Part shown: piece after piece, positions 848 to 40,268 of the stretch | How positions within the stretch are numbered: position 1 is the first letter of the stretch | How the letters are laid out: the number at the start of each line of letters is the position of its first letter | Assembly: GCA_032622095.1 (NCBI GenBank) | Contig: CP136061.1 | Span: forward strand, 238,190,609 to 238,254,608 | Length of the DNA stretch: 64,000 nt | From: Siphonodentalium dalli | Taxonomy: Eukaryota; Mollusca; Scaphopoda; Gadilida; Siphonodentaliidae | Direction: 5' to 3' | Translations under genes and position numbers: made by a program | Notes under the pieces: generated by a model | The model's input: the letters and a program-made list of their open reading frames with translations, nothing else | What the model was told of the DNA's origin: nothing | Database searches by the model: none

Positions 848-2083
848 GGCTACTGTTGAAACGATTAATCGATTATTAAATAGGTTGACGCTGAAATCTG
901 CCAGTCAATTAGTCTCTACAAATCCACAACATGGCCTACTAATCGCTATAAATAACATAAGGTGTAACCATCCCTTCAAATAATGAACATCCTTCAATGC
1001 AACGGTACCCTTATTATTCAGAGATTCAGTTATTACTCCTTTTAGTGACTCGATTTTTGTATCAACCCATATACCCTGTGCCAATGCATTCTCTTATATA
1101 TGTGAGTCGACCATAGGTCGCCTCGCATATATAAGAGAATGCATTGGCCTAACAATTTTTCATCATTTGTTATTATTTTTTACAATTTTTTACAATTTTA
1201 ATAAATTTTTTTAAATCTAAAGATCGGCCCCTGGTACTGAAAGGGTTAACACGGGACACAAGGGTAGCACAGTAGATCGAGTGATCAACTCATCATGCGC
1301 TGTGTCTCTAGTTTTCTCAAAAGACGCTAACAACTCTGTGCTGGTGAGCTGCTGCGCTAGCTGGCATATTGTTTTAATTAGCTTCTATATTATTTGCTGT
1401 TCATTCTGTTAAGTTCTAGCACTGTTTCTGGATTTTGTTTGGAGTTACATAGAGGATCTCAAACGAGTTACTATTTTATACGGAATTTATCAACCGAGTT
1501 CACTAAATTTGATTTGAGCCGAGGTTTACCGAATAGAATTTAATGGACGAGGTTGATAAATTACGTATAAAATAGAACGAGTTTGTGATACTTTTTATCA
1601 CATGATCATATAATCGCTAAAATTTTATTGAAAAGAACAATAATTAATTGCAGCCAGCAAACTTTGTCCCAAAGAGCAGCGTGACGTCATTGCACGCGAC
1701 GATATTACACGTGTCTATTACGCTCGAATATTACATAGGAAAATAGTGCTAATCATGTGATAAATGTAGTTTCTTAACATCATGTTTACCTTCTCTACTC
1801 TTTATTCACATAGATTAGTTACATTCATCGAGCCTATTATTTTTATTTTTGACTGGATTTCTTGTGACAAATACCATTAAGTTGGCATTAACGACATATT
1901 TGTGAAATAATCAGTTATAAAATTACGAATAACAGTTTAAAAAATATTGTTTGAAAAGACGTTCTGTTGTCAATCATGTCACCAACAGTTGGGTTCGACT
2001 AATCAACTTGTAGTCAACTTCTCCTGTTGACTAGTCGACTTTTCTGAATACCCCAAATTGTTTCAAACCTACTATTTTCATGC
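848..2083. mobile_element. Possible hAT-like element, degenerate
   Basis: The left side has TGTTGAAACGATTAATCGA. The right side has GTTGACTAGTCGACTT and a reversed GTTTCAA. This resembles the termini of the intact hAT element at 17491-18403. No clean target duplication was found, and a TTAA-type MITE is nested inside at about 1033-1249. The boundaries are approximate and the family assignment is an inference. Confidence 0.3.
1033..1249. mobile_element. TTAACCC-type MITE, degenerate left end
   Basis: The right end reads ACTGAAAGGGTTAA. The left end is worn (TTACTCCTTTTAGTGAC instead of TTAACCCTTTCAGTGCC). Between them lie GATTTTTGTATCAACCCAT and the ~70 bp palindrome (1079-1147) with arms CCAATGCATTCTCTTATATA and the reverse. 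It belongs to the same subfamily as 2911-3345 and 3784-4012. Confidence 0.7.
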
Positions 2084-2171
2084 TTGCTCAAAATTACACA
2101 ATTCTAAAGGACTGCACTTAAATACCAGTAAATGGGTTTCTGTGATGAATTTTTTATTTTTTTTGTTGCAG

Positions 2172-2321
2172 TGAATGGTCGGCCGAGGCCCATAGAGAGT
2201 GACAGTTTAAAGCACATCAGACATGAGCTGCAACATATAAGGGACAGAGTGAACACGTTACTGGACAGGTTAGAACCACTGCCAGTCATATCCAGTTCTA
2301 TGGATGTAGCTGGTGCACAAG
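2172..2321 (+). CDS. TFG: TFG internal exon: PB1 end and coiled coil
   Basis: This internal exon of TFG, a scaffold protein at ER exit sites that organises COPII transport, encodes NGRPRPIESDSLKHIRHELQ and then HIRDRVNTLLDRLEP. It matches the vertebrate TFG segment that runs from the end of the PB1 domain (NGQPRPLES) into the coiled coil used for octamer formation. The acceptor is a T-rich tract ending TTTGTTGCAG and the donor is GTCAGT. The first codon is split, with one base on the previous exon, and the exon leaves in phase 1 (CAA G). The earlier exons with the start codon and most of PB1 lie before the window. Identification rests on family knowledge of the conserved NG.PRP.ES and coiled-coil pattern. 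Confidence 0.88.
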
Positions 2322-2910
2322 GTCAGTTTCTCATTTCTGGTATTTAATGACAAGCCAAAAATTGAGAGGAGGTGTATCTAAATGGCTACCAGTTGTCCTC
2401 CAATCCCGTTACCATGTTCATTTGGTAAAATAAATAGAGAGTAATAATTTTTTTTCGATGGTTTCGATGATTATGTGACATAAGTCACAAGTGGAATTGG
2501 CCATCGTGAGCTGAGTAAAAACATCACCATGAAGAAGAACATGGAGAAATACATAAACTTTGTTCTTCTATTCATTACTGATAGGTATCTAGTAACAAAT
2601 ATTTCGTGTGTTGAAACCATTGTTATATAAACAAAACTCTTACAGTTATTTGTCATCAAACATCGCTAATCAAATAGTAAGTTCAAATATTTTAGTCTCA
2701 ATATGATTTTCAGAATATTTTGCTATGCTCAGGAAACATATTTACCATCAATGTATATGTCCAAGAGCTTCCTCTTTCAATGGCATAGCATACAGGGCCG
2801 GGAACCTAAATCATATTCCAAAAAATATCTGCAAGTTGTTAGACTAAGTGAGCTATCCCAACAAATCATCTTGGATACAGCAAAAAACGGATTATCAAAC
2901 AGATTTGTTT

Positions 2911-3345
2911 TTAACCCTTTCAGTGCCAAGGCCGATTTTTGTATCAACCCATATACCATATGCCAATGCATTCTCTTATATATGCGAGTCGACCATAGGT
3001 CGCCTCGCATATATAAGAGAATGCATTGGCCTAACAATTTTTCATCATTTGTTATTATTTTTTACAATTTTAATAATTTTTTCTTATATTCTTTAACAGA
3101 CTTATTTTGTAGGTTTAGTGCCAGGGAATATTACATTTTTCATGGGCATCAAAATTATTATTATGAATACTTGGTGATAGTTTTAAGTTATAACATGCCC
3201 CTAAGGTTATTTTTTATCCAGTTTGTTTTTAAATTCGCTATAGCATTCTTAAGCATACCCAAAACAAATTTTAATTTTTTAGTGCCGATTTTACAGACCG
3301 TAAATTAGGGCCGATGAGATCGAACCTTGGCACTGAAAGGGTTAA
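2911..3345. mobile_element. TTAACCC-type MITE, 435 bp
   Basis: The ends are TTAACCCTTTCAGTGCCA and its inverse TGGCACTGAAAGGGTTAA, with a TTAA at each boundary, as in piggyBac-type insertion. The shared palindrome lies at 2961-3030, followed by AT-rich DNA with TTTTTTCTTATATTCTTTAA. A 201-codon open frame across 2703-3308 is a by-product of this element and not a gene. Confidence 0.85.
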
Positions 3346-3689
3346 AGGCGCAATTAATTTTTGAGTCACCGATTATTTTGTTTATATTGCCTTGATATAG
3401 GATTTTAATAACAATCTATGGCATAAATTATGATTAAAATACTATATTTGGAACGTCTGTGTCTCAGAAGGTGCCCATAGAGTAATATAAAATAGCTGAA
3501 ATTATAGAAACATTTCCCCCATTTTACTCCCAGAATGCAACATAATTCAAACTAAGACACAGAGTTATTCCCTTTCCATTGAAAATAATACATTGTGCAC
3601 TACTGTCCATATGAAACTTAAGCACAGAAAATACGTCAGTCCTCAACAAAAACAACATGTTCTCAGTTTATTACACAGAATAAATTGAT

Positions 3690-3783
3690 AATACAATGTT
3701 TTAGAGCTTTCTCTTGCAAATGGTATATAATATGGCATATATTTTATATAATGTGATCTGGGGGTTCGAAAATTAAGTGGGCC
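3690..3783. repeat. Fragment of the GGCCCACTTAA element family
   Basis: The sequence from TTTAGAGCTTTCTCTTGCAA to AATTAAGTGGGCC matches one end of the inverted-repeat element at 55379-55821. Only one end is present. It abuts the TTAA of the MITE at 3784. Confidence 0.55.
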
Positions 3784-4012
3784 TTAACCCTTTGAGTGCC
3801 AGGTCGATTTTTGTATCAACCCATACACCCTGTGCCAATGCATTCTCTTATATATGCGAATCGACCATAGGTCGCCTCGCATATATAAGAGAATGCATTG
3901 GCCTAACAATTTTTTTTTTTACAATTTTAATAATTTATTCTTATATTCTTTAACAGACTTATTGTGTAGGTTTAGGGCAGATCAGATCGGCCCGTGGCAC
4001 TCAAAGGGTTAA
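3784..4012. mobile_element. TTAACCC-type MITE, 229 bp
   Basis: Perfect terminal inverted repeats TTAACCCTTTGAGTGCCA and TGGCACTCAAAGGGTTAA frame GATTTTTGTATCAACCCAT, the shared palindrome (3832-3903) and an AT-rich spacer. It is a shorter member of the 2911 subfamily. Its C/G change in the terminus (TTTGAG versus TTTCAG) is matched in both ends. Confidence 0.9.
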
Positions 4013-4514
4013 AGGAGATTTTGGGTGAAGAAAACGACGAATGCTCACTTTGATGTGAGACATCTTGCCACAATTATTGAATTATGATGTAGGATCCCAG
4101 CCCTGTTACATGTAGCTTATGATAATAATGTAATTTAGCTTATGATAATAATGTAATGTAGCTTATGATAATAATGTAATTTTATATTTTGATCATTAGG
4201 CCTTTAACCCTTTACCCAACAAAGCGGCCAAAAATGCCCAAATAAAGCTTCAACAGCCTAAAATATCTTCGGTCTGTCTCAATAACACCATACAACTATG
4301 GATATCATTGGAACCGGTTCATTGACCACATTGTGATGGTTACAGTTATGCCCTGTGCCAATGCATTCTCTTATATATGCGAGTCGACCATAGGTCGCCT
4401 CGCATATATCAGAGAATGCATTGGCCTAAAAAATTCTTTTTTAACACTTTTTACCATTTTTTCTTACATTCTTTAACAATTTTATAATTTTTTTCTTACA
4501 TTTTTTAACAGTTT

Positions 4515-5470
4515 TTAGCTCACCTGAGACGAAGTCTCCGGTGGAGCTATAGTCATCACTCCTCGTCCGTCGTCCGTCCATCCGTCCGTCCATCCGTCCG
4601 TCCATCCGTCCGTCCGTCAACAATTCTTTGAACATCTTCTCCTCTGAAACCGGAAGACCGAATTGGTTCATATTTGGTGTGGATGTTCCCTAGGTGACTC
4701 TCATTCAGATTTGTTCAAATGAGGTCACTGGGTCAAATAGTTGCGAAACCAGGGCCATAACTCTATTCCTCCACAGTAATTCTTACAACGACTTCTTGTC
4801 CATAACCATTGTGCCGATTTAGCTAATATTTGGTATGGAGGGTCCTTGGGTGACTGGTGTTCAGATTTGTTCAAATGAGGTCACCCGGTCAATTAGTTGA
4901 GAAACCAGTGCCATAACTCATAGTAATTCTTACAATGACTTCTTCTACAAAAATATTTGGCCGAATTAGCTTATATTTGGTACTGAGAGACCTTGGATGA
5001 CTGGGAATCAGATTTGTTCAAATTGGGTCACTGGGTCAATTAGGGGCAGAGCCAGGGACATAACTCTAAAAACCAAAAAATTACATTTTTGCATTTTGAT
5101 CATATTTGGTGTGGATGTTCCCTAGGTGACTGTCATTAAGATTTGTTCAAATGAGGTCACTGTGTCAAACAGTTGCGAAACCAGGGCCATAACTATATTC
5201 CTCCTTGGTAATTCTTATAACGACTTCTTGTCAACAAGCATTATGCCGATTTAGTTTATATTTGGTATGTGGGGTCATTGAATGACTGGGGTTCAGATTT
5301 GTTCAAATGGGGTCACTGGGTCAAATAGTGGTGGAGCCAGGGCCATAATTCCCCAAAAAATAATAAAAAATTCAGGAACTTCTTGATCAATTTAACATAC
5401 AAAAACAAATATCACCCCCCCCCCCCCACATGACCCAGAACCCCACCCTGCCCCCAACCAACAGCATTCC
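4515..5470. repeat. Bivalve-type repeat with CGTC microsatellite head and ~150 bp units
   Basis: It starts AGCTCACCTGAGACGAAGTC, passes through a (CCGTCCAT)n tract at about 4561-4620, and continues as diverged units spaced about 150 bp apart. Each unit holds ATAACTC, TCTTGTC, ATATTTGGT and TTGTTCAAATGAGGTCAC (for example around 4758, 4911, 5058, 5186, 5344). Similar units return at 6830-7330. No coding frame is preserved. Repeats of this style are widespread in bivalve genomes; the function is unknown. Confidence 0.75.
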
Positions 5471-5689
5471 ACCCTATCTCATATCCTAACTCACAGGTAA
5501 ATAAAGTTTTTTTAAAAATTCCCATTACAAGGCAACTCTCCTATGAACTGATAGACACCACAGATGGAGTCCCCAGGGAGTGTATTCATGTCATCCATAA
5601 TTTAAATGAGATTAATGGTGTTATCAATGAAGCACCCTTGTTGTTTACATTATCACTCAGTGGTCATTAAAATCAGATTAATTTCATTT

Positions 5690-6830
5690 TCTCAGAGTGC
5701 CTGGCATTTGTTGAATGAGGTTCACAGAGGGTGAATTTAGTGACGCTATCCTACACAGCAGGCTAGCATAACCAAATACACCCTCTGAGAACCTTATTCC
5801 GCATAGGCCTCATCTTCTGGGAAGTATCTAGAGTCTCAAGATCTCATTCTGCTTAGGCCTCATCTTCTGGGAAGTATCTATAGTATCAAATTTACATTGT
5901 TGTTAGTTAAATTTCCCTTCTAGGAAGTTTCTGTATCCCTTAATTTGCAGAAGATAAAATTCATGATTGAGGTGCCCAATGGGTGAACATCACCAATTTC
6001 AACTGGGGAACTTCAATCTTATTCTAGGTCTTCCATAGCAGTTGAGGGCCTTATCAGAGTGAGGTCCCCAGAGGGTGAATTTAGTGATACTAGCCCGCTG
6101 TGCGGGATAGCCTCACTAAATTCACCCTCTGGGTACCTCATTCTGCAAATAACAGACAGACTATTTCAAAGCTTGATTCAAGGCTAGCATCACCAAATTC
6201 ACCATTTGGGGACCTCATTCTGCTTAGGCCTCATCTTCTGGGAAGTATCTATAGTATCAAATTTACATTGTTGTTAGTTAAATTTCCCTTCTAGGAAGTT
6301 TCTATATCCCCTAATTTGCAGAAGATAAAATTCATAATTGAGGGGCCCAATGGGTGAACATCACCAACTTCAACTGGGGAAATTCAATTTTATTCTAGGT
6401 CTTCCATAGCAGTTGAGGACTTTATCAGAATGAGGTCCACAGAGGGTGAATTTAGCATCACTAAATTCACCCTCTGGGGACCTCACTCTGCAAATGACAG
6501 ACACACTATCACACTATTTCAAGGCTTGTTGTATAATACATTGTGTTGCTTGAGGCCAGGCATACACAATGTAGGAACAGACACGCTTTTTGTGATGCTA
6601 TCCGGCACAGCAGGCTAGCATCACCAAATTCACCCTCTGGCGTCCTCATTCTGCTTAGGCCTCATCTTCTGGGAAGTATCTATAGTATCAAATTTACATT
6701 GTTGTTAGTTAAATTTCCCTTCTAGGAAGTTTCGATATCCCCTAATTTGCAGAAAATAAAATTCATAAATGAGGTGCCCAATGGGTGAATATCACCAACT
6801 TCAACTGGGGAACTTAATTTTTATCCTTAT
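5690..6830. repeat. Cluster of hAT-MITE derived copies
   Basis: Inverted motif pairs AGGGTGAATTTAGTGA / TCACTAAATTCACCCTCT occur at about 5706-5810, 6057-6165, 6425-6510 and 6600-6655. They are joined by direct copies of CTTAGGCCTCATCTTCTGGG (about 5810, 5852, 6222, 6654). These are the inner parts of the family seen intact at 11286 and 24371. The arrangement looks like repeated nested insertion or unequal exchange. Confidence 0.65.
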
Positions 6831-7424
6831 CAGATTTGTGAAAATGGGATCACAAAGTCAAATAAGGGCAGAGCAAGAGACTTAACTATTTCACTACATA
6901 GTAATTCTTAAAATATGTTTGCAAGAACTAGTTGGCTTATATAGAATGGAATGTTCTTCCTTGACTGCAATTCAGATTTTTTTAATGGGGTCACCTGGTC
7001 AAATAGGGGCCAAGCGAAGGACAGTTTCCCTCTTAATATGCTTCCTTCACAAGGACCATCAGGTCTATTTGACTGATATTTATGATTTGTATGAAGGGTT
7101 CTTTGGTGTCTGGGATTCAAATTTATTCAGATGGGGTCACCCGGTTAAATAGGGTGGGACCAGGGACATAACTATATGTCTCTATAGTAATTCTTAAAAT
7201 GTCTTCTCAAGGGATTTTGGACTATTTAGCTTACATATAGTATGGAGGAATCAGGAAGATCCTTTAGTGACTGAGATACAGATTTGTTAAAATGAGGTCA
7301 ACCTGTCAAGAAATGGCAGTCTATGGGGAGTTAACACTTTTGTGTCCAATAAAATCATAGAAATACCAAATTCATTAAAACATCTACCTTGGAACCACCT
7401 GACTGATTGGTCTGACATACATGT

Positions 7425-7803
7425 ATTGTGTTTTGGGTCCATGGATAATTGGGCTTCAAACATGTTTAAATGGTTTTAGAAAAAGGCGCTTGTGAGATTG
7501 GAAATTTCCAACAATTGAGAAAGTTTGAGGTGTCGGTTGTGAAATTCCAACCTAAGACTTGGGAGTCTGGATCCCGGTTGGGAGGGGACTTGTTGAGCTG
7601 GAGGAGGGGGGTGATCAGTAGTGTACAGTTGGCAATTTCAAGGTGGTTTTTTTTACCAAGCTAAGTCTCTCTAGCCACATATCCTGTTTAAATCTACTTC
7701 TTTTAAAGTGATTATGAAAAGTGCTGACTGTTTTGGTCTCCAGAGTCCCAGTCTTATCAGTCTTTGCAGTCTGGTGAGCGACCCCACAGTCATTGACTGT
7801 CTT
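7425..7803. repeat. Dispersed repeat, copy 2 of 2
   Basis: It matches 1-420 in the same orientation with scattered substitutions, so two copies lie about 7.4 kb apart on either side of a TFG exon. It forms the last part of the DNA inserted into the MITE at 4204-7957. Confidence 0.7.
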
Positions 7804-7953
7804 GTTATAATATTTTTCTACATTCTTTGACAATTTTATCATTTTTAATATGTGTTAAGTCAATGCATTCTCTTATATATGCGAGGCGACCTATGGTCGA
7901 CTCGCATATATAAGAGAATGCATTGGCACAGGGCCATTCTGTTGGGTAAAGGG

Positions 7954-8648
7954 TTAACCCTTTCTATACTAAATGGATTCTCCCAGTCAGTTAAAAGTGT
8001 CTATTATTGATTTGGAGGGATGTATATGTAATATAAGCTGACAACAGATAAATAAAAGTACAGAAGGAGTCTTATTTATTGAGGGAAATGTTTAGATAAT
8101 AAGTTCAACTGGTCATTTGCTGAACTTATTAGGTCAAAATAAAAAAGACCTGTGTTTCTGGTGACCCGCCCACCCTATTCCGGCACCCCCAACCATTTTC
8201 ATTTTATTGATTTTACAAAATTAGTACGCATCCAATTTTATTTTCCATGTAAACCGATTCTTTTCCGTGTAAAACGGACGCATCGCGTGTACTGTTAAAC
8301 CGGAAATTATTCCACACTTCAATTTGGTCACAGCTGAATCAAACTTACTTGTTCATGTTTATTCAATAAAACAATAAATTACACTATATTCTAATATTCT
8401 GTACTTAGTTTTATTATTTTATAGTAGATTAAAAACAAGGATAAGCAGTCCTGGGGGGGTATTCATATTTATTTTGAGTAAAGTTGAAAATAAAATGAAA
8501 AAATAAAATAAAATGAAAAGCCACCTGCCCGCCCCTATTTTTTTCTTGCATGTCACCAGAAACACAGGAATATTTTGTTTTGGCCTTTTCTGAACATTTC
8601 CTGTGGGATAACTACACGTCCATGATGCTTTAGTATAGAAAGGGTTAA
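7954..8648. mobile_element. TTAACCC-type MITE, ACTAAATG subfamily, ~695 bp
   Basis: The left end TTAACCCTTTCTATACTAAA and right end TTTAGTATAGAAAGGGTTAA are perfect inverted repeats. The left TTAA (7954-7957) is the same TTAA that closes the preceding element. The interior has the inverted pair AATAAGTTCAACTGGTCA / GCTGAACTTATT, seen again at 15883, 20335, 20785 and 21733. It lacks the GCATTCTCTTATATA palindrome. It ends 33 bp before the next TFG exon. Confidence 0.85.
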
Positions 8649-8681
8649 ACTATACAAAACCCCTATATGACTATTTTTTAG

Positions 8682-8837
8682 ATTCTGTCACACAAAGTAG
8701 TCCAAGGAAAGCAGTTACCCAGCTCAGGCCGGCTGCAGCGGTTAGTGGAAAAGAATTTGACCCTTTGTCTTCACAAAGATCTGTTGATGATGGCATTCAA
8801 AACAAAGTTGCTTCATCATTTGGATTATCCAATGATG
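8682..8837 (+). CDS. TFG: TFG internal exon: conserved FDPL block
   Basis: The exon enters in phase 1 and leaves in phase 1, consistent with its neighbours. It encodes DSVTQSSPRKAV and then EFDPLSSQRSVDDGIQNKV followed by ASSFGLSND. This matches the vertebrate TFG block [20 protein letters not shown], which follows the coiled coil. The acceptor is CTATTTTTTAG and the donor is GTGAGC. The length (156 nt) keeps the frame. The upstream TTAA element at 7954-8648 ends inside the acceptor neighbourhood. Confidence 0.9.
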
Positions 8838-10474: not shown

Positions 10475-10944
10475 TTAAAGGTACTCAATCCGATCAGACG
10501 CTCCTAAATTACTATTCCTTTGGCTTCGGGGGTAAAAGATATTTGATTCGAGTCGAGGAACCCACCCGTCAGAGTGATTAGATATCGATGTTTGAAATTT
10601 GCTGTTTCTATTGTTTGTGGACCAGATCTTTTCTAGGAATTCGTGCTCAAACGGACAAATTGCGGTTGTAAGATGGATAACTCTAAAATCAAGTGGTTAT
10701 TATTGTTAATAATAACCACTTGATTTTAGAGTTATCCATCTTACAACTGCAATTTGTCTGTTTGAGCACGGATTCCTGGAAAAGATCTGGTCCACAGACA
10801 ATAGAAACAGCAAATTTCAAACATCGATATCTAATCACTCTGTGCTTTGATGGGTGGGTTCCTCGACTCGAATAAAATATTTTTTACCCCCGAAGCCAAA
10901 GAAATAGTAAATTAGGAGCATCTGATCGGATTAAGTACCTTTAA
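10475..10944. mobile_element. TTAAAGG-type palindromic MITE, 470 bp
   Basis: The ends TTAAAGGTACTCAATCCGAT and ATCGGATTAAGTACCTTTAA each include TTAA. Almost the whole element is self-complementary, including a long central hairpin (about 10640-10790) around AACCACTTGATTTTAGAG. Relatives lie at 19138, 47252, 60882 and as a fragment at 37118. Kolobok and piggyBac superfamilies both target TTAA; the termini alone do not settle which applies. Confidence 0.85.
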
Positions 10945-11874: not shown

Positions 11875-12000
11875 TTTAGCCTTTCATGACTGGAGCTTCC
11901 TGAAATTTTGTGAAAACCATGTGCCAATGTATTCTCTTATATATGCGAGGCTCCCTATGGATCTTTAATGCTGCACCAGCGCAGCTCCCATCCATGGGAT
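11875..12000. mobile_element. Degenerate TTAACCC-type MITE fragment
   Basis: It reads TTAGCCTTTCATGACTGGAGC, then one half of the shared palindrome (11919-11960), then CTGCACCAGCGCAGCTCCCA and CCATGGGATA. This is the CATGATGGGAGC subfamily with an internal deletion and worn ends. Confidence 0.55.
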
Positions 12001-13812: not shown

Positions 13813-14083
13813 TTAACCCTTCCATGATGGGAGCTGTGCTGGTACAGCATTAAAGACCCTGCGCCAGTGCATTCTCTTATATATACAAGTCTCTCATAGT
13901 GAGCCTTGCATATTTAAGAGAATGCACTGGCTTACATGGTCGAGGTAAATATTGTTAGGCCAATATATTCTCTTATATATGCTATGCTACCTATGGGAGA
14001 CTTGCATATACATGTATAAGATAATGCATTGGCACTAGGGTTTTCTCAAAACTTCTTGGAAGTTCTAATTATGGAAGGGTTAC
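13813..14083. mobile_element. TTAACCC-type MITE with two palindromes, ~271 bp
   Basis: The left end TTAACCCTTCCATGATGGGA pairs with a worn right end ATTATGGAAGGGTTAC. Two palindromes (13867-13932 and 13962-14033) of the GCATTCTCTTATATA type stand in series, separated by ATGGTCGAGGTAAATATTGT. The same two-palindrome layout occurs at 21235-21482. Confidence 0.82.
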
Positions 14084-15775: not shown

Positions 15776-15882
15776 TTAGTCTACCGATACTGATGCACAC
15801 CAATTGGCGGTAGCCACCGGCGGTAAGCCACCGAAAACGAGACACAGCATCTCTGATGCCACCTCTTGTATTGTAGGGATAT

Positions 15883-15952
15883 GCTCAGATAATAAGTTCA
15901 ACAAAAGATCTATGGTGATTTGTTCAACTTATTATCTGAACATTTCGTAAGG
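15883..15952. repeat. Inverted repeat from the ACTAAATG MITE subfamily
   Basis: CTCAGATAATAAGTTCAACA and its inverse TTGTTCAACTTATTATCTGA face each other across about 20 bp. This is the inner hairpin of the element family at 7954, 20281 and 21564, here without the TTAACCC ends. Confidence 0.6.
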
Positions 15953-15999
15953 AAAAACTACTTGTCAATGTGTATTTATTATAGTAATGGTTAATAAGT

Positions 16000-18558: not shown

Positions 18559-18905
18559 GGTTTTCGCCCTACACCCCAGGACAAACAGCATTCAGCCAAC
18601 CTCAAGTTCAACCACAACAGCAGGCTGCACAACAAACTGGCCCTCAACCAGGAGCCCCTCAACCAGGAGCCCCTCAACCATCACAGCCAAACTTCCCACC
18701 ACAAAGTTCTCAACCAGGATATGGGGCTCCTACTCAGTTTGCTAATTATGGTCAACCTCAACAACCCCAGGGTCCTCAACAAATGACGGCACAACCACCA
18801 CAGCAACAACAACCACCACAGAAGATACCACAATCGGGTGCACCAGGCTTTCCAGCTCAAGAGCAACAACAACAGCATCAACAACAACAGCAGGGATATA
18901 ATCAG
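18559..18905 (+). CDS. TFG: TFG internal exon: P/Q-rich region, part 2
   Basis: It enters in phase 1 and leaves in phase 0 (347 nt). It encodes GFSPYTPGQTAFSQPQVQPQ, the tandem QPGAPQPGAPQPS, GYGAPTQFANYGQPQQPQ and QQQQHQQQQQGYNQ. The composition and YG/PQQ spacing match the vertebrate TFG tail. The 15-bp unit coding PGAPQ is repeated exactly in the DNA (CAACCAGGAGCCCCT), a likely site of length variation. The donor is CAG|GTATGT. A TTAA-type MITE begins at +5 of this donor. CAACAA/CAGCAA runs make the exon prone to slippage. Confidence 0.9.
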
Positions 18906-18909
18906 GTAT

Positions 18910-19016
18910 GTAACCCTTTCATGATGGGAGCTGTGCTGGTGCTGCATAAAAGATCCTTTGCCAGTGCATTCTCTTATATATGGGAATAGGGAGATATAAG
19001 AGAATGCATTGCTTGC
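18910..19016. mobile_element. TTAACCC-type MITE fragment at a splice donor
   Basis: It reads TAACCCTTTCATGATGGGAG, then GCTGTGCTGGTGCTGCAT, then a shortened palindrome (18961-19014). Only the left part remains. It starts inside the donor GTATGTAACCC of the TFG exon ending at 18905, so the intron's first bases are partly element-derived. Confidence 0.75.
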
Positions 19017-20280: not shown

Positions 20281-20917
20281 TTAACCCTTTCTATTACTAA
20301 ATACTCATTGATGAGTAGTTATCTCTCATAAAATGTTCAGATAATAAGTTCAACAAAGGACCGTAGCTCTTTTTTTTACTTTTTTTTTTTTTTTAGATAA
20401 AAAGGCTTAAGCTATAGCCATTGGTTGGCATCTGTCGTCCATGGGGGGGCATCTGTCAATCAACAATTTCCTATGGCTCACACTACAAGCCGCATCTCTC
20501 ATCCGATCATCACAAAACTTCATATGGATTTTCAGGGTGACCTCCAGATGGGAGCTTTCGATTTTTTCCAAAATTTGTTAAAAAAGATGGCCGATAGCAG
20601 CCATTTTGGATTTCATATTGGAAATCATCGACACACCCTGCATTTATTGGAGAATTGTTTACAGGCATGTTTAGGATTACCTCCAGATGGGAGTAATCAA
20701 TTTTTGATAAATAACATTACCCCCCTGCAGCCATTTTGAACTTGACTCTTTGCATGACTTTGGATTTTTATTTATTGTCTGAAAATGTTCAGATAATAAG
20801 TTTAACAAACGACCTATGACTTATTATCGGTCGTTTTTTTTTAACTTATTATCTGAATATATCTTAAAGGAACTACTCATCAATTAGCATTTAGTATACA
20901 TGTAGAAAGGGTGAAAT
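20281..20917. mobile_element. TTAACCC-type MITE, ACTAAATG subfamily, interrupted
   Basis: The left end TTAACCCTTTCTATTACTAAA pairs with a worn right end TTAGTATACATGTAGAAAGGGTGAA. The pair AATAAGTTCAACAAAGG (20345) and ACTTATTATCTGAA (20843) faces inward. A bivalve-type repeat (20395-20770) is lodged between. Confidence 0.65.
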
Positions 20918-21234: not shown

Positions 21235-21482
21235 TTAACCCTCTTATGATGGGATCTGCGCTGGTGTAGCATTAAAGATCATGTGCCAGTGCATTCTCTT
21301 ATATATGCGAGTCTCCCATAGGGAGTCTCACAAATAAATGCACTGGCTAACAATGTCAAGGTAAATATTGTTAGGACAATGCATTCTCTTATATATGGGA
21401 GGCAGACTCGCATATATAAGAGAATGCATTGGCACAGGGTTTTTGAAAAAAATTTAGGAAGCTCCAGTCATGGAAGGGTTAA
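21235..21482. mobile_element. TTAACCC-type MITE with two palindromes, 248 bp
   Basis: TTAACCCTCTTATGATGGGA at the left and TCATGGAAGGGTTAA at the right are both bounded by TTAA. Palindromes lie at 21284-21344 and 21381-21434. The layout is the same as 13813-14083. Confidence 0.85.
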
Positions 21483-21563
21483 ACATCCCTTTTCATGAAA
21501 AATTTGTCATTCTAATGTATACTTTTATAACTGAATGGGAGAATCCATTCAATAAGCAGAGGA

Positions 21564-21818
21564 TTAACCCTTTCTTTACTAAATGGATTCTCCCATCCAG
21601 TCATAACCGTATACATTGAAATGACCTATTAGCCATCTGGAGGGGTGTTCCGGAAATAAAAGCAGATTACAAACAGACAAAAGATAATAGTCATAATACA
21701 TATGCAGAAGGGTTCCTATTCATTAGTTGGAAATGTTCAGATAATAAGTTCAACAAATTAACTTATCATTTCCTATGGGAACTACTCATCAATGAGTATT
21801 TAGTAAAGAAAGGATTAA
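21564..21818. mobile_element. TTAACCC-type MITE, ACTAAATG subfamily, 255 bp
   Basis: TTAACCCTTTCTTTACTAAA and TTTAGTAAAGAAAGGATTAA are inverted with TTAA at both sides. The interior has ATGTTCAGATAATAAGTTCA. It ends 29 bp before the last TFG coding exon, so it forms part of that acceptor's upstream region. Confidence 0.87.
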
Positions 21819-25583: not shown

Positions 25584-25984
25584 TTAACCCTTTACCCAAC
25601 AGAACGGCCATGTGCCAATGCATTCTCTTATATATGCGAGTCGACCATAGGTCGCCTCGCATATATAAGAGAATGCATTGGCTTAACACATTAAAAATTA
25701 TAAAATTGTTAAAGAATGTAAGAAAAAATGGTAAAAAGTGTTAAAAATAGATTTTTGTTTAGGCCAATGCATTCTCTTATATATGCGAGGCGACCTATGG
25801 TCGACTCGCATATATAAGGGAATGCATTGGCACAGGGCATAACTGTAACTATCACACTGTGGTCAAGGAGCCGGTTCCAATGATATCCATATTTGTATGG
25901 TTCTATTGAGACAGACCGAAGATATTTTAGGCTGTTGAAGCTTTATTTGGCCGGTTTTGGCCGGTTTGTTGGGTAAAGGGTTAA
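25584..25984. mobile_element. TTAACCC-type MITE, ACCCAACA subfamily, intact 401 bp
   Basis: TTAACCCTTTACCCAACAGA and GTTTGTTGGGTAAAGGGTTAA are bounded by TTAA. It carries two full palindromes (25615-25683 and 25761-25832) separated by TTTAACAATTTTATAA-type AT-rich DNA. It serves as the reference for reconstructing the split copy at 4204-7957. Confidence 0.92.
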
Positions 25985-31180: not shown

Positions 31181-31189
31181 AACAAATTG

Positions 31190-31660: not shown

Positions 31661-32624
31661 ACAAAAAATTAGATTTAAATTTTTTTTTTTAATTTAATAA
31701 AAAAAAATACATTTCTTCATTGAATTGCTGAGACTCATTTAAACACCTTCTTGGGAACTACCGTGCTGATTAATCTGACGTATGGTGTGAAGCGGCCTTG
31801 GATGGTAGGTATTCAGATTGTTAAAATGTGACCGACCTATCAAAAAGAGCCAGACCTGGTGTCACACTTTCCAAGTGACCCTCCCATCTTCAACCGCCCC
31901 CATCCCATTTCCTCCCCTCGTCCACACCCTCCCCCTCCGCGAATTCTTGTCAATGTTATATATCATTTTTGTTTTGAGAACAATAAGCATTTTAAGGCAA
32001 CTTGAGTTAATTACCTGAACATATGCTATGTCTATTTTCATCTTATCTGACAAATTTTAATAAACAAAGTTCCACAGAGCATCAAATGTTTGTGTCCAAG
32101 GGTAAATGTATTTAACTAGACCAATGGAGCTCTAGGTACTTGGATGCTTGGACTTAATTTAGATCAAACCATGCCGAGATAGGAGATATAACACCCACCC
32201 ACTGCTCTACATGGGAAACTATTTGTGCTTTTAAATTTTAGTTTGGTCTGTATATATAGGTTCGTAGCATCATTCAGCAGTTATGATATCTCTTCAGTTT
32301 ATATAGGTGTTATGTCATCTGTATATAGGCTGTTAACCCTGTTTCATCAAAATAGTAAGGTTTGTAGCAATTACTACCATGTTGATAGCATACTTCTATA
32401 CCCTACGATATATAATATAGGGTGCCATGGCTGATGCTAACTAACACTTCCCTAAATTGTGTTGTTACCTATAGGGAACATGGTATCACATGCCATGGCT
32501 TAACTATTTTGGAATTCTAATGGGTCCGGAAAAAAATATTTGCAGTTCTTGTGAAATGTTCTGCTTAGTATAGATGAGAGTGACTGAGAAGTTGAAAACA
32601 TGTTTTAAAGTTATTTTTAATTGT

Positions 32625-32875
32625 ACAGAATGGCATTACACTTAAGCATAATGGAATTACACTTAAGCGTAATAGCATTATGCTTAAGCGTAATGGCATT
32701 GCACTTAAGCATAATGGAAATCTGAATTATGCTAAAGTGTAATGACATTATGCTTAAATTACATTACGCTTAAGCGTAATAGCATTACTCTTAAGTGTAA
32801 TGGAATTACGCTTAAGCGTAATGGCATTACGCTTAGGCGTAATGGCAATTACGCTTAGGCGTAATTGGCTATTAA
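32625..32875. repeat. Minisatellite of self-complementary ~20-21 bp units
   Basis: About eleven units of the form CATTACGCTTAAGCGTAATG follow one another, with small changes (ACACTTAAGCAT, ATGCTTAAGCGT, CGCTTAGGCGTA). Each unit is itself a near-perfect palindrome centred on CTTAAG, so every unit pairs with itself and with every other unit. Confidence 0.85.
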
Positions 32876-32999
32876 ATGTGAATTTGGCCTCCCATATATA
32901 GTCACTGTCTGAAGTAGAAGTCATCTAAAAAGTTGGAGATGTCATATATTAATGTTGTAATCTGAATGTATGTCACACCTTATGTCATGACTCATGATA

Positions 33000-34168
33000 T
33001 TACCATATAGCTGTTGAAAAATCCCAATTCATAACTAACTCGAGCCGCATGTTGCGATAACTTAAATAATTTGTATAAATCACTCTATTTTTTTTTCATT
33101 TCCATGTTTATGACGAAGTCCTCGTTTCGGTACCGATGGTTTATCGATTTGGAAAATATTAACGCCTTTTAACCATTCCATGTCTTTTAGCCTTTTCCAT
33201 TATTAAATAACTATATTATATTGATATATCACATGGCAATTTGCAACAACATAAATATAACTGCTTACACAATGATAGTTTAAATGTTTATTAATCCTTT
33301 TCTTGTGATCAATAAATTCCAATAGTTTTAATTGTGTAAATTATTATCTACAATAATTTTGTCTATACTAGATTATGATTCCGATCGTAGCAATTTATTA
33401 TCGCCAAGGGATGGGTTCTACCGGCAATCGTGATCGGCCTCTCAATAACTTTCTTTTAAATTATTTTCCAAGCTATTCCTTCAAATTCAGCTACAGTGGC
33501 ATTGACACTTTCATTGTTCATAAATATACTACGGTTGGAAAAATCAGTTCATATTGCGATAATATAAATTAAAATGTTACTGTTTTAGTTTCTTTTAAAA
33601 TCAGTTCATTTTACAAAAAAACTACGTGTTCGGCTAATTCAATGCAATTTTTTCCACATCTTGTATGATAACTTTCCTCTGTGCACTGGTATCGATCACC
33701 ATCGAGTATATTATATAGATCGATGGTATCACGAGAACACGTGAATTTCAGCATAATATCAGGTGCACACACTGTCCGAACGATATCCAAATTATATAAA
33801 TATACAAAAAAATCCGGATTCTTCCTATAAAAACAAGAACGGGCAAAATATAGGATATACTATTTACACATACACAGAGGTATTATGGATATCGTTCACC
33901 CAGTGCATGCATACAATTCCATCGAATATGCATTGTGTAAAAAAAAAAATGACAACGCGGATGTAATGGAGCTGACAGAAAGATTCGCTGGGTATAGATA
34001 TAATTATGGAATTTATCTGCGGCATAAAATAATGAAACTTGTACACATGGAGAGAGATAGGTCATAAAAAAAATATTTGGAAACGCGTCAACGGTAACGA
34101 CATAAGCTGACGTCAGTACGTTATGAAGCTAAACCGGATGTGAGCGTATATATACACGCCATACCACC
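33000..34168 (+). promoter_or_regulatory. Upstream region of the SLC16-like gene
   Basis: A perfect CRE-type octamer TGACGTCA lies at 34108-34115, 54 bp before the start codon. A TATATATA string at 34147-34154 is too close to the ATG to act as a usual TATA box unless transcription starts elsewhere. The rest is AT-rich and shows no recognised repeat. The promoter call is an inference from position and motif only. Confidence 0.35.
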
Positions 34169-34430
34169 ATGTCGCCAACGAAGAGATCTCGTTTATCAAT
34201 TAATTTGGATAGCTTTAACGACGTTGACAACAATCTAGTTGACATCGATACTGATCCAATTCAAGAGGAAGAGGAAGAAACTACGGGTATCCAAAAGGAT
34301 AGTCGAGAAGCATGGATAGTCTGCCTCTGTGGATATGCCACACAACTCAACTGCTATGGGCTGCTCCATGCGTTTGGTGTCTTCTTTGTTGCGTTCATTG
34401 ATGAATTCAAGGCGTCGAAATCAGAAGCAG
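34169..34430 (+). CDS. SLC16/monocarboxylate-transporter-like, exon 1
   Basis: The start ATG sits in a strong context (ACCACCATGTCG). The exon encodes residues 1-87: a charged N-terminal tail with an acidic run EEEEE (about 33-37), then DSREAWIVCLCGYATQLNCY and the first membrane helix (about 49-75), ending FKASKSEA. The place of DSREAW and SKSEA matches SLC16 proteins, where a conserved (D/E)G(G/S)(W/F/Y)GW motif precedes helix 1 and SKSE.AW links to helix 2. The usual DGGWGW form is not kept here. Donor GTATGT, leaving in phase 1. SLC16 proteins carry monocarboxylates or related solutes across the plasma membrane. The substrate cannot be told from the sequence. Confidence 0.85.
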
Positions 34431-34985
34431 GTATGTTATAATACAAGGTTTATGATGTACCTCCTGGTTTTATATTATGTGTGAATTCACTGTATATTTT
34501 CACATTGAAGCGGAACGCGACCAGAAGAGTCATATTTCTTTATTACCATTAATTTAGTCAGAGTCCATTAGTGTCTCCGTTGATCGAAGATGGGTTACTA
34601 GAACTTAGTAGAAGGCACACGACTTCATCTCTGGGTCCAAATTTGTTAACAAGCATACGGTGCAGAATAATGGTATACAGGGTGTACAATAATTTTGCTA
34701 AAGCCAATTATAATACGGGGTGGAATAACAGTGCAGGGTAGCAATTTCCAACATTGAAGCAAGTCTATCTGAAATGCTATGAGTATGAGGTCAATCATAT
34801 ACATTTATCAAATTATGCACTGTGTTGTGTCATAGGAGTTACCGAACAGACTCCAGGAACATGTGTGTACAATCTTGTCCTAGTCTGAGCTCAGTGAGTT
34901 GGTCTGGATAACAGACCCGACAATGCTGAGAAATACTGACGAAGTTGATTTCCGTTCATTATTCCTTGTTCGATTTTGTTTATAT
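34431..34985. other. Intron 1 start, nothing recognised
   Basis: No repeat family or exon was recognised in this part of the intron. Confidence 0.4.
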
Positions 34986-34989
34986 TTCG

Positions 34990-35230
34990 CTAAAATAAAG
35001 GTTGTTGCAGGGTGGCCCCAAGACACCCTTTCCACAAACCACATACACCCACCCGATCCAAAATAGCTGCCGTCCAGAGGGTTTCAAATGGGGGCACCAT
35101 GCCATTTCTCGGCCCTTGGCCGATTTAGGTAAAACAAAGGGTGTTGTATGGTGGCATCAATCAATCAGCCCAAAACAGTCTAAATATTCAACACACACAC
35201 ACACCCACTCCGATCCAAAATGGAAGATTT
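34990..35230. repeat. Outlying units of the ~145 bp tandem array
   Basis: GGGTGGCCCCAAGACACCCT, CCGTCCAGAGGGTTTCAAAT and GCCATTTCTCGGCCC match the main array at 35755-36825. About 525 bp of unrelated DNA separates them. Confidence 0.75.
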
Positions 35231-35754
35231 GGGGTAATAAAAAGTTAATGCTGCAATGCTTTCTGGACTGTACTCATAAATCAATTTCTGAGTTAGTACA
35301 ATTTAATGAGGATACAGTCAATAGTATTGAGAAGATAAGTCGTTCACTGATCTACATGTATGAGCTGCATATCAAAAGAGCAGCGAAACTCAATGCATAG
35401 CTTTTCTGATGTAACAATTTGGAAGGGTCCATATCGGATAATTGACAATATACTCTCACTCTGCTTGATTATAATATGCGATTCACTACAAATCAATATA
35501 TAAAAATGTCTCTAATTACTGGAGCTTGGACTCTTGTGCACATACTAATCCAGAGATTCTACATATTAGTAGTTAATACGGAAACTGCTTTTTCATATCT
35601 GTTCTTACTGCATCCTGTACGTGTTTCCATACTATTTCTGCATTAACTGTTTAGTGTGCTAGGTGGACAACCAGAAACTGTGTAGCAGCTAGAACTCAAG
35701 ATTACCTGCTCTACAGGGTTCTTCGAAGACAACGGAGGAATATACTAACAACAA
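35231..35754. other. Spacer between tandem blocks, nothing recognised
   Basis: Non-repetitive at this scale, with no exon signals that fit the flanking gene. The 132-codon frame ending near 35400 begins inside the tandem repeat and is not supported as a gene. Confidence 0.4.
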
Positions 35755-36825
35755 CAACAATGGCCGCCGTCCAGGGTTTCAAATAGGGCACCCATGCCAT
35801 TTCTCGGCCCCTTGACGATTTAGGTCAAACAAAGTGCATTGCATGGTGGCCTCCGAGAGATTCTAAATATTCACCAAGACACCCTACCCCGATCCAAAAT
35901 GGCCGCCGTACAGAGGGGTTCAAATAGGGCATCCATGCCATTTCCCGGTCCCTTGGCGGATTTAGATAACATAAAAAGCATGTTGTAGGGTGGCCCCAAA
36001 AACTTTATAAATAATCACACCACACACCCACCCAAATCCAAAATGGTCGCCGTCCACATGGGTTCAATTTTAAATAGGGCACCCATGCCATTTCTCGGCC
36101 CCTTGAACGATTTAGGTAAAACAAATGGTGGTGTATGGTGGCCCACCAAGACATTCTAAATATTCACCCCGTACACCCCACCCGATCAAAAATAGCCGCC
36201 GTCCAGAGGGGTTCAACTTCAAATATAGCACCCATGACATTTCTCGGCCCCTTGGCTGATTTAGGTCAAATGGTGTTTGTAGGGTGGCACACAAGACATT
36301 CTAAATATTCACCCCACCCCGATCCAAAATGGCCGTCGTCCAGTTGGGTTCAAATTGGGCAACCATGACATTTCTCGGCCCCTTGCCGATTTAGGTCAAA
36401 CAAAGGGTGTTGTAGGGTGGCATCCTAGACATTCTAAATATTTATCACACATACTCCATCCAAAATGGCCGCCGTATATAGGGTTTCAAATAGGGCACCC
36501 ATGCCATTTATCGTCCCCTTGGCCGATTTAGATAAAAAAAAAAAAAAAAAAAAAGAGTGGTTGTAGGTTGGCCACAAAGACATTCTATGTATTCACCCAC
36601 ACACCCCACCAAGATCCAAAATGGTCGCCATCCAGTGAGGTTCAAATGGTGCACACATGCCATTTCTCGACCCCTTGTCCGATCTAGATGAAACAAAGGG
36701 TCTTGTAGGGTGGCACCCGAGACATTCTAAATATTCACATCACACACCACACCCCCAATTCAAAATGGCCGCCGCCCACAGTTCAAATAGGGCACCCATG
36801 CCATTTCTCGGCCAACATGTTATAT
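35755..36825. repeat. Tandem repeat array, ~145 bp unit, about eight copies
   Basis: The landmark GCCATTTCTCGGCCCCTTG recurs at about 35792, 35937, 36087, 36237, 36370, 36503, 36658 and 36802, spacing 133-155 bp. Each unit also has TCCAAAATGGCCGCCGTCCA, TTCAAATAGGGCACCCATG, GATTTAGGTAAAACAAAGGG and ACATTCTAAATATTCACC. Unit length varies by small indels and a poly-A run near 36537. The array lies in intron 1. Confidence 0.9.
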
Positions 36826-37117
36826 TTGATCACCGATCTGGGGAGAGGTTTATTGGCTTTAATTGACAAACCAACGCAAGTGTGTGACTTTTATATTGTG
36901 GTCTTTTTTGTATTATACATACATGTATGCACTGATTTGTATCAAGACTGTATATACTAGTAACTGTTCACATAAATATATAATTTGTTGGATTAGTAAT
37001 GTACGTATATACGGCATGTAGTTGATAATGACATTGGGGACGACGGTGATATAAGGTGACGACGGCGAAGACAACGATCGATGATAGTGTTGGTATAATT
37101 CCATCTGACTATATATA

Positions 37118-37265
37118 TCTTTGGCTTCGCGGGTGAAAAATATTTGATTAGAGTCGAGGAACCTACCCATCAAAGCTCGAAATGTGTAATTATGTTGTGG
37201 CCATGCAGAAAAGAGTCGTCAAACCGATGGATTGCAGACGAAGATGGATCACTCTAAAGTCAAGT
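37118..37265. mobile_element. TTAAAGG-type MITE fragment
   Basis: ATCTTTGGCTTCGCGGGTGA, ATTTGATTAGAGTCGAGGAA and CACTCTAAAGTCAAGTG match the left half of 10475-10944 in order. The ends are missing. Confidence 0.65.
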
Positions 37266-37472
37266 GTTAATACGGCCAAATTTCGTGATACGCAAGTGAT
37301 ATATGGCCATATTTCGTTGAACAACATGTTGATAAATAACACGTTTTGGGAAATTTTATACCATAATTGATAGAGGTTAGCATTATTGTGTTGTAATTAA
37401 TCGATTCTGAATGGTGGACGCATATCAACGGCTAAATTAAGCGAGGACGAATTTCCTATTAGTTTGTGAAAG

Positions 37473-38708
37473 ATGTCGGCAGAAACAAGGAAACATTTGC
37501 AGAATACAGGACAAGAAAACTGTTATTCCTGTAACGGAAAATTCAAGATAAAGAAACACAGGATTGTTTGTGACTTTTGTAAGCAGCACCACCATTTCAG
37601 ATGTCAAGGGATAGATGCAGAGGACTCAACAGACATACTAAATACATCAAGTAGTATTTTGTGGTCGTGCAAGAAATGTAGAAACAAAAGCGACAGCCAG
37701 AATAAATGCCACAGTGACCAGGATACAAACGATGACACTAAACGGAATAACCTGGAAACAAAAGAAGAATTGATACCAAATATGGAACAGGTAAGCAGGA
37801 AAGGACAATCAAAAACGCGGGAACAATTAAGCTCTGAGGATATGGGTATTTGGATGTTACACATCGAAAAGTTGCTGGAAAAAGTAATAGCAAATATGGA
37901 CAAATTTGATGCGTGTATCAAAATTAAAGTGGATCAGCGCATTGATAACTTCGAAAAGAAGTACAACACAAAAGTGGAAAAACACACTTCAGAAATGGAA
38001 AAGAGATTACAGAAAATAGAGTCATATATGTTGAAACTAGAAAAAAGAGTAAATAGATGTGAAGAAAAACAAACTACTGAACGGGGAGAAACATACACGC
38101 AATTAGAGGCATCAAAAGGAAAATCAGAAAAACTAATAAAAGAATTCGAAGAGAAAAACAAACGATTATTTGAACAGCAGCGAACAGAAATACAAGAAAA
38201 ACAGACTATGCTAGAAACTATTATAGAAGAAAAACTTTAAAAACCCATGAACGCATATAAAGAACCAACTGGAATTTCAGAATCAAAGAACCACAACATT
38301 GTGATAGCAAATATACCCGAATTGTCACAAACAGAAGAATATTCAAGAGAACAGGACTGGCACCGTATAAGCAATAAAATACAAGAAAGGTCAAAATTTA
38401 ACGACAGCGATGTCTTGTCCTTTTACAGACTTGGCAACAGGTCTTCGAATAAAAATCGACCGGTCAAGATAGTCGTGAAAAATAAACAAACTCGAGACAA
38501 AATGATTCGTGATGCTATCGGATACAATAAAATGGACAGTAAAACAACAGGCAGTGAAAAAATATACTTTAATTTAGATCTCACGAAAACGCAAATGGAA
38601 CAGCTCTATGAACTCCGCATATAACTGAAAAGGAAACAGAACGTTTACCCTTCTAGGAACTTCCGCTTGGAAGGTAATTGGATAGTGGAACTTTATACTT
38701 TGAAATAG
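37473..38708 (+). pseudogene. Non-LTR retroelement ORF1 remnant with two in-frame stops
   Basis: One reading frame runs 412 codons and is broken only by TAA at 38238 and TAA at 38622. Part 1 (37473-38240) has a PHD-type zinc finger: C17, C20, C33, C36, H41, C44, C66, C69, in the C4HC3 spacing, with W64 two residues before the last pair. A long charged coiled coil follows (about residues 130-255). Part 2 (38247-38624) has NIVIANIPE, then SFYRLG and RPVKIVVKNKQTRDKMIRDA and NLDLTKTQMEQLYELR. This is the RNA-binding pattern of ORF1 proteins of CR1/L2/L1-like elements. Part 3 (38625-38708) has NVYPSRNFRLEGNWIVEL, the usual ORF1 end. No endonuclease or reverse transcriptase follows. It lies in intron 1, on the gene's strand. 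It may be a decayed non-autonomous copy. Confidence 0.8.
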
Positions 38709-38832
38709 TGCACTCCAGTGAAATCAGTATTACTCAATTTATTGTGACGTCGAAATTGTAAATGATTATATTATTAACGGGGACTAAGAGTCAAACAGAC
38801 TCGTTCTCAAATAAAGATGATGATGATGATAA
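38709..38832 (+). repeat. Retroelement 3' tail with (ATG)n
   Basis: A short 3' UTR contains AAATAAAGATGATGATGATG, a short-period tail of the kind many non-LTR retrotransposons use in place of poly-A. It follows ORF1 directly, so the part that should encode reverse transcriptase is absent. Confidence 0.65.
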
Positions 38833-38913
38833 CAAAAGCGTAATTTGAATAAATTGTGTTGTTGTATTTTGTGATATGGGGACCGCCTGAATGTTCGTCG
38901 TCTCTGTTTTCAG

Positions 38914-39485
38914 CATGGGTTGGCTCCGCAACATACGGATTGTCTATGGTACTCGGACCGGTTGTAGGTTTCCTATTGAACAAGTTCGGCAATCGATCGG
39001 TGACGATGGTCGGAGGCTTCATATGTGTGATATCGTTGGTTGTGTCGTCTTTCTGTACATCACTTTCCCAGCTGTTCCCTGCTTTCTCTGTTCTATACGG
39101 CATTGGATCGGGGTTGGCTGTGAATCCAACAATGACTGTTGGGCAAACCTATTTCGACAAACAACAATCAGTTGCAATGGGTATGATAACAGCCGGGAGC
39201 AGCACGGGGACACTCATTTTCAACCCACTTGCACAGGCCTTGGTCGACACGGTTGGATGGAGAAACACATTCAGAATATTTGCTGGGATCTCCTTTATCA
39301 CTACTCTCAGTGGAATCTTCATAAAGCCCATTAAACAAGAAACAGATCAAGTGCAGAGATTGAAAAACTCGCCCATGAAGGGATTGGTTTGTGAACTGAA
39401 GCTTTGGAAGAACAGAGTCTTCATAATTTGGATGTTAGCATTGTTCTGTGTGATGTTTGGTTACTATATACCTTATGTCCACTTG
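38914..39485 (+). CDS. SLC16/monocarboxylate-transporter-like, exon 2
   Basis: Residues 88-278. The acceptor is TCTCTGTTTTCAG, the first codon is completed across the junction (G|CA), and the exon leaves in phase 0 at donor GTGAGT. It encodes helices 2-7: AWVGSATYGLSMVLGPVVGF, KFGNRSVTMVGG (helix 2/3 loop), YGIGSGLAVNPTM, then the family signature TYFDKQQSVAMGMITAGSST, equivalent to the YF.KRR.LA.G.A.AGS motif at helix 5 in SLC16. The loop after helix 6 (KPIKQETDQVQRLKNSPMKG) is short. Helix 7 ends GYYIPYVHL. An overlapping 147-codon frame is a shadow. Confidence 0.92.
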
Positions 39486-39507
39486 GTGAGTACTATAATA
39501 ATTTATA

Positions 39508-40268
39508 TTAACCCTTTCATGACGGGAGCTGGGCTGGCGCAACATTAAAGACCATGTGCTAATGCATGCTCTTATATATGCGAGTCGACCATAGGTCGCC
39601 TCACATATATATAAAGACATATTATGGACTTGTTCGGGTGCGTGAAACTGCTAAGTTAGTATTCAGGTGCTATGCCACCTGGGGGAATGTGGTATTCTAC
39701 CAACATACCGAAAATCTCAAGCAAATCGACCGTACCACTCCATATAAAACATTGTCTCAACTACGCTAAATTGTAAATATTTACTACTCGAATCGGGACG
39801 CTTCTATCGGCGATAAACTAACGAAAACAATTTCGCCATCGGCAGTCACTGCCTTTAATTAATATACAAGAATGGCGGTGTGTGTTGTCAATTTAGATAT
39901 ATTATATTTGTACAAATAACTACTTTGAACAAGATTATTCTCCATTCTCCTACGGGAGTGTTTCATATCACTTTAAGAACTTTACCATTTTTTATAATTT
40001 TTTCTTACATTCTTTATCAATTTTTTATCATTTTTTCTTACATTAATCTTCAACAATTTTTGTTATTTTTTATGATTATTTCTTACATTCCTTTAATTTT
40101 TATTATGTTTTTTTTCTCTCACATTTTTTAACAATTATAAAAAATAATATAAAATTTTTAGGCCAAAACATTTTCTTTTATATGCGAGTCGACCATAGGA
40201 GAATAAGAGAATGCATTGGCACAGGGTTTTCGCAAAAAAATCATGAAGCTCCCGCCATGAATGGGTTA
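39508..40268. mobile_element. TTAACCC-type MITE, split, next to a splice donor
   Basis: The left end TTAACCCTTTCATGACGGGA begins 23 bp after the exon 2 donor. The right end GCTCCCGCCATGAATGGGTTAA closes at 40268. Palindrome halves lie at 39555-39620 and 40162-40221. The inserted middle (about 39620-40130) includes AT-rich repeats of TTTTTTCTTACATTCTTTAT at 39985-40131. The ~250 bp size of relatives shows that about 500 bp was gained. Confidence 0.78.

Follow-up and report, generated by a model that had tools for sequence, protein, structure and literature searches.

Among the transposable elements described so far, the nearest precedent for the present case is the CMITE group of the coral Acropora (PMC2872659), a set of TTAA-flanked piggyBac-like miniature inverted-repeat transposable elements (MITEs). 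CMITE families differ in their CCC-type tips, their internal region is better conserved than the tips, and one element joins the tip of one family to the interior of another. The authors suggested that a tip motif together with the interior is enough for transposition by several transposases. Here we describe a comparable group of TTAA elements, with different tips but a common 69-bp palindrome, in a single 64-kb stretch of the Siphonodentalium dalli contig CP136061.1. This stretch is called the window, and all counts of elements and palindromes refer to it. Type A here has the tip CCCTTTCAGTGCCA, which differs at a single base from that of CMITE family VI, CCCTTTCACTGCCA. CMITEs, however, are about 100 bp long, have a single internal region of 75 bp with a different sequence, and lack a 69-bp palindrome at each end; their printed internal consensus holds the short dyads GGGG-TT-CCCC and GACGA-GTAAAA-TCGTC.

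Subterminal palindromes are known from several piggyBac-type systems. In human MER85/PGBD3 (PMC3459987) a 16-bp palindrome, GTTCCAtTAtTGGAAC, lies 3 bp from one terminal inverted repeat and 96 bp from the other and is required for most of the binding. Like the elements in the window, MER85 is non-autonomous, uses TTAA and has an asymmetrically placed subterminal palindrome, which is bound there by the transposase; unlike them, it has a palindrome of only 16 bp, in a single copy per element and of other sequence (PMC3459987). In Trichoplusia ni piggyBac (PMC7351741) the core domains sit on the tip, and a dimer of the cysteine-rich domain (CRD) sits on a palindromic internal repeat whose distance is unequal in the two ends. 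In piggyBat of Myotis, one of the ends carries three palindromes (PMC11707139). Palindromic internal repeats, there bound by the CRD dimer, and asymmetric ends are features that both systems have in common with the elements here (PMC7351741, PMC11707139, PMC13405395), but the palindromes measure 19 bp in piggyBac and about 14 bp in piggyBat, the outer one lies near the tip, and their sequences are unrelated to one another and to the palindrome here. KolobokP, which is abundant in bivalves, has the same TTAA target, whereas its termini are 5'-RR with long terminal direct repeats instead of CCC (PMC9587614). A Kolobok identity is ruled out by the CCC tip.

A palindrome, and probably a body, shared by elements with different tips

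On balance, our analysis favours the view that the elements in the window are non-autonomous piggyBac-like MITEs with a shared body and exchanged or diverged tips, and that the palindrome would be an enlarged palindromic internal repeat of the piggyBac type. The assignment to piggyBac-like MITEs is made because of the TTAA ends and the CCCTTT tip. The palindrome has the 69-bp consensus GCCAATGCATTCTCTTATATATGCGAG-T-CGACC-ATA-GGTCG-C-CTCGCATATATAAGAGAATGCATTGGC with a single T/C mismatch in the stem. Folded as single-stranded DNA, the consensus copy (2962–3030) forms stems of 27 bp and 5 bp with −35.4 kcal/mol and a z score of −15.6. Its arm, CCAATGCATTCTCTTATATA, has 26 matches at up to 3 mismatches in the window, compared with 0.03 expected. 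A profile built from seven copies of the palindrome gave 15 places above the inclusion threshold, seven of them the profile's own members; these are, within a few bp, the places of the roughly fifteen copies that an earlier note on this DNA had named. Shortened or rearranged palindromes are found at 11919, 18961, 21284, 21381, 39555 and 40162, and the copy at 13962 carries a 6-nt insertion. No known structured RNA was matched in the window at the Rfam gathering threshold. The arm pattern and a gapped two-arm pattern had no matches in prokaryotic and viral contig collections, which is of little weight for an animal element, and no description of the palindrome was recognised in literature searches, which excluded Repbase.

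We named the element types by their tips: A (TTAACCCTTTCAGTGCCA), B (TTAACCCTTTACCCAACA), C (TTAACCCTTTCATGATGGGAGC) and D (TTAACCCTTTCTATACTAAA). The palindromes of types A and B are identical at 68–69 of 69 positions (99–100%), whereas the segments between tip and palindrome agree at 50–63% of the aligned bases, with the common TTAACCCTTT counted in. Over ten between-type pairs, identity amounts to 595 of 628 positions in the palindrome versus 215 of 380 in the tip segment. The palindrome is therefore closer across families than the tips, in the manner of the CMITE interior, which does not hold for the remaining interior (216 of 385). Within A and B (five pairs) the corresponding values are 338/345 for the palindrome, 293/323 for the tip segment and 233/273 for the interior. 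The A/B palindrome is better conserved than the tips with p 3e-5 and than the interior with p 2e-9, or with 0.007 and 0.003 when just the three non-overlapping pairs are taken. The stretch common to A, B and C starts with CCCTGT just outside the palindrome; inward it continues with CTAACA and then becomes AT-rich, with an TTTTTTCTTACATTCTTTAACA-like motif. Since CCCTGT, CTAACA and the AT-rich interior are shared besides the palindrome, 'same body, different tips' seems a better description than a palindrome travelling alone.

It is possible, though rather doubtful, that a single ancestral element diverged gradually, with the palindrome held by constraint while the tips drifted, and with no exchange of tips or modules. 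Against this, the A/B palindromes are as alike across families as within them (67–68 of 69), and the tip segments of A and B share little beyond TTAACCCTTT, with no intermediate tip in the window. Gradual divergence is favoured by type D, where the layout is retained and the centre is similar while the arms are unrelated, and by the type C palindromes, which are intermediate with pairing kept: 8 double-changed cells were counted versus 2.5 in shuffles (reached by 0 of 500), although these correspond to 4 pairs versus 2.2 (reached by 54 of 500 shuffles) and the number of pair types was reached by 287 of 500. Type C is also heterogeneous at the centre of the palindrome. One element, C4, has the A/B centre under C tips, and three other ends (C1L, C1R and C3L, with L and R for left and right) have another centre with paired changes. 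C tips are thus found over two kinds of core, which an old C element with an A/B core would also explain. In a simple account, the A and B copies may be young and their sources constrained, while the C copies may be old, with hairpins lost to deletions.

Elements of types A, B and C

The three palindrome-bearing tip types distinguished in the earlier note (AGTGCCA, ACCCAACA and CATGATGGGAGC, with only TTAACCCTTT in common) proved to be real. In type A, element A1 (2911–3345, + strand; 435 bp; tip TTAACCCTTTCAGTGCCAAGG) has TTAA at both ends and a palindrome at the left end only (2962–3030). A2 (3784–4012, +; 229 bp; tip TTAACCCTTTGAGTGCC), again with TTAA at both ends, carries its palindrome at 3834–3902, and A3 (1035–1249, +), with a decayed left tip and hence an approximate start, at 1080–1148.

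Type B comprises B1/3 (4204–7957, +; tip TTAACCCTTTACCCAACA), with palindromes at 4357–4425 in the long end and 7859–7927 in the short end, and B2 (25584–25984, −; 401 bp), with palindromes at 25614–25682 in the short end and 25763–25831 in the long end. Other repeats, about 3.2–3.3 kb in all, split B1/3 from about 4519 to about 7800. The piece on either side corresponds to one half of B2, and we therefore regard B1/3 as one interrupted element. The palindromes that the earlier note had placed at 4351 and 7861 are thus present, but instead of marking separate ACCCAACA elements they belong to the two unequal ends, long and short, of a single one, which leaves two such elements and not three.

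Five copies or remnants represent type C. C1 (13813–14083, +; tip CATGATGGGAGC) has a mutated right tip and palindromes at 13863–13931 and 13959–14033. From C2 (18909–19013, +) only the left end is present, with a shortened palindrome (18960–19013), and in C3 (21235–21482, +) both palindromes (21285–21347 and 21375–21433) are shortened. C4 (39508–40269, +), which combines C tips with the A/B-type centre, has a truncated palindrome at 39558–39611 and an inverted, shortened one at 40162–40220. The C5 remnant (11876–11992, without strand assignment) consists of a right tip and half a palindrome (11923–11960), fused to a left-tip remnant.

Counting type D, for which coordinates are given below, ten elements were compared. 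The tips begin with 5'-CCC (CC[C/T]T) and stand in inverted orientation; a CC[C/T]T tip motif is that of the piggyBac superfamily as given in PMC2872659. TTAA is present at both ends in eight of the ten (A1, A2, B1/3, B2, C3, C4, D1 and D3), and left and right tips match at 17–22 of 24 bp in 8/10, the exceptions being C1 and D2 with their decayed right tips. Moreover, the two tips of an element vary together: position 11 is C in both tips of A1 and G in both tips of A2, and likewise D1 has CTATAC and D3 CTTTAC at both ends.

Position and orientation of the palindrome

Counted from the first T of TTAA, the palindrome centre lies at 85 bp in A1, 84 bp in A2, 84 bp each in C1L, C3L and C4L, 82 bp in D4 and 83 bp in D2L, that is, in seven intact ends, and the spacer of 40-odd bp from tip to palindrome is unrelated between the types. 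In C4R, whose palindrome has lost 10 bp, the centre is at 73. No clean distance was obtained for C1R, where the script took the wrong tip, and for D2R, with a decayed tip and an insertion. Type C is symmetric, with the palindrome edge 49–50 bp from both ends. The orientation relative to the nearest tip is the same in 11 of the 12 readable copies, the inverted one being C4R; three more were undecided.

This arrangement bears on the idea that the palindrome is a by-product, i.e. hairpin-prone DNA that template switching or gene conversion copied, corrected and made uniform, and that plays no role in transposition. The palindrome-specific deletions and the one inverted copy in type C would suit such an origin, as would the paired changes between the arms. 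Nevertheless, we think it improbable, given the near-constant tip distance in three types despite unrelated spacers and the outcome of a hairpin survey. When 32 strong hairpin centres were picked regardless of their sequence, all nine A/B/C palindromes lay near a tip (within 250 bp of TTAA[C/T]CC), compared with 2 of 22 other strong hairpins; D4, with its mutated tip, was set aside.

Even less credible, and in our estimate highly improbable, is the idea that the palindrome, or the core from palindrome to palindrome, forms a transposon of its own inside the TTAA elements. Such a transposon would be in keeping with the abrupt outer boundary that A, B and C all show at CCCTGT, CCC being a piggyBac-like tip. 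Yet flanking duplications are within the chance range for 12 single palindromes (2–4 bp) and 5 cores (2–3 bp), the core edges lack TTAA, and orientation and spacing are near-constant. All 15 copies lie inside TTAA-type elements, one tip being decayed in A3 and in C5, and no copy in the window stands outside such elements. Of the two readings offered in that note, a separate transposon living inside the elements was not borne out, while a module traded between families fits better, with the qualification that more than the palindrome is shared.

Proposed explanation

In the piggyBac-like interpretation that we prefer, the tip would be contacted by the catalytic portion of a piggyBac-like transposase, while the dyad CGACC-ATA-GGTCG at the palindrome centre, about 80 bp inside, would be occupied by the pair of cysteine-rich domains at the C-terminus of that protein or by a host factor. 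The palindrome would then serve as the subterminal recognition site of each end. Types A, B and C would represent one body (palindrome plus AT-rich interior) with different tips, and type D the same layout with other arms. The long arms could offer further binding sites, a bend or a cruciform, among other possibilities; a cruciform has been suggested for such repeats (PMC12324416). That a transposase binds the palindrome, that tips were exchanged and that the long arms have a role is what we infer from the arrangement of the sequences. The layout of tip, spacer and dyad, with the unequal ends of type B, fits the piggyBac plan, although the dyad lies farther from the tip and its arms are much longer. 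Type B shows the piggyBac pattern of a dyad close to each tip but unequally spaced, which not every type does.

Several observations weigh against this interpretation. The known piggyBac-type palindromes are 16–19 bp long, and the outer ones are nearer the tip than here. Type A has the palindrome at one end only. The ends of both B elements, with centres at 64 and 187, depart from the spacing rule, and so does the long end of D1, where the palindrome edge is at 135 bp. Within C (eight pairs) the palindrome is no better kept than the tips (343/440 versus 315/394), and indels are nearly all located in the palindrome, with 98 gap columns versus 5 summed over the eight pairs. The AT-rich interior motif is weak evidence for a shared body because it also occurs at 59999–60132, without palindrome or TTAACCC tip. 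Finally, a search for a piggyBac transposase gene, as recommended in the earlier note, covered 30 of the window's 31 open reading frames (ORFs) of at least 110 amino acids, and none of these 30 contains a piggyBac domain.

A more far-reaching version would treat the ends as two freely assorting modules, the tip and, about 80 bp inside in a 69–70 bp palindrome, the dyad CGACC-ATA-GGTCG. At least four tip types would share the dyad, with two arm sequences; one body would be moved by several transposases that differ in the tips they prefer, and the arms would be kept paired by hairpin-templated correction while diverging. We regard this version as rather unlikely. The coral pattern of different tips on one interior may reflect how piggyBac-like MITEs are generally built, a pattern for which a subterminal palindromic docking site usable by several tips would offer a reason. 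If true, end recognition would be modular in the piggyBac superfamily, which bears on the mobilisation of several MITE families by one transposase and on the evolution of asymmetric ends.

Type D and its own palindrome

A fourth type, ACTAAATG, had been thought to lack the palindrome. It does have a subterminal one, but with other arms, GTTCAGATAATAAGTTCAAC, for which there are 7 matches versus 0.02 expected. D1 (7954–8648, +; tip TTAACCCTTTCTATACTAAA), whose first TTAA is the closing TTAA of B1/3, has a partial D palindrome from 8090. D2 (20281–20913, +), with a decayed right tip and an approximate end, has half a palindrome at 20335 and a second one at 20787–20858. D3 (21564–21818, +) has a single collapsed palindrome at 21735, and D4 (15883–15994, −) is a single D end in which both arms of the palindrome are present (15883–15902 and 15922–15941). 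The copies with both arms fold with z scores of −7.4 (15874–15950) and −8.9 (20780–20866), and a third, partial copy with −2.9.

No similarity was detectable between the D arms and the A/B arms (1009 of 5000 shuffles were as good in global and 3273 of 5000 in local alignment), and the D-arm pattern had no matches in a viral contig collection, which is of little weight. The centres of D2R and D4 resemble CGACC-ATA-GGTCG, with modest statistics and with segments chosen after the match had been seen. Of 20000 letter shuffles, 3 were as good as D2R, 28 as D4, 395 as D2L and 4301 as D1L, so that a likeness of the D1L centre is not supported. With random palindromes as control, the D2R and D4 centres were equalled by 8 (score 10) and 110 (score 8) of 20000, respectively. 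At 21482–21649 two D tips stand head to head with a common TTAA, forming an 84-nt imperfect inverted repeat.

Neighbouring sequences

The window also holds hairpins of other kinds. One family, GCAGAATGAGGTCC...GGTGAATTTAGTGATGCTAGCCCGC, has centres at 5756, 6100, 6458, 11361, 11464 and 28925, without a TTAACCC tip within 250 bp; membership was assigned by eye. An inverted repeat of 135 nt at 10570–10842 (96%, 3-nt loop) is unrelated to the palindrome. The AT-rich motif at 59999–60132 adjoins a 30-bp tandem array (59484–59773). Two adjoining ORFs at 37470–38624 resemble a retrotransposon ORF1; in the first, a PHD finger matched weakly, below the Pfam cut-off.

Two of the C elements lie next to apparent exons. 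C4 is located in an intron directly after an exon of a major facilitator transporter (38853–39548; Pfam MFS_1, E 6.7e-25), of which a second transporter piece, below the Pfam cut-off, was seen at 45718–46278. C2 starts about 5 bp past an apparent exon end (ATCAG/GTATGTAACCC, 18870–18935), which places its tip around the 5' splice site in a gene rich in Gln and Pro that we take to be TFG-like.

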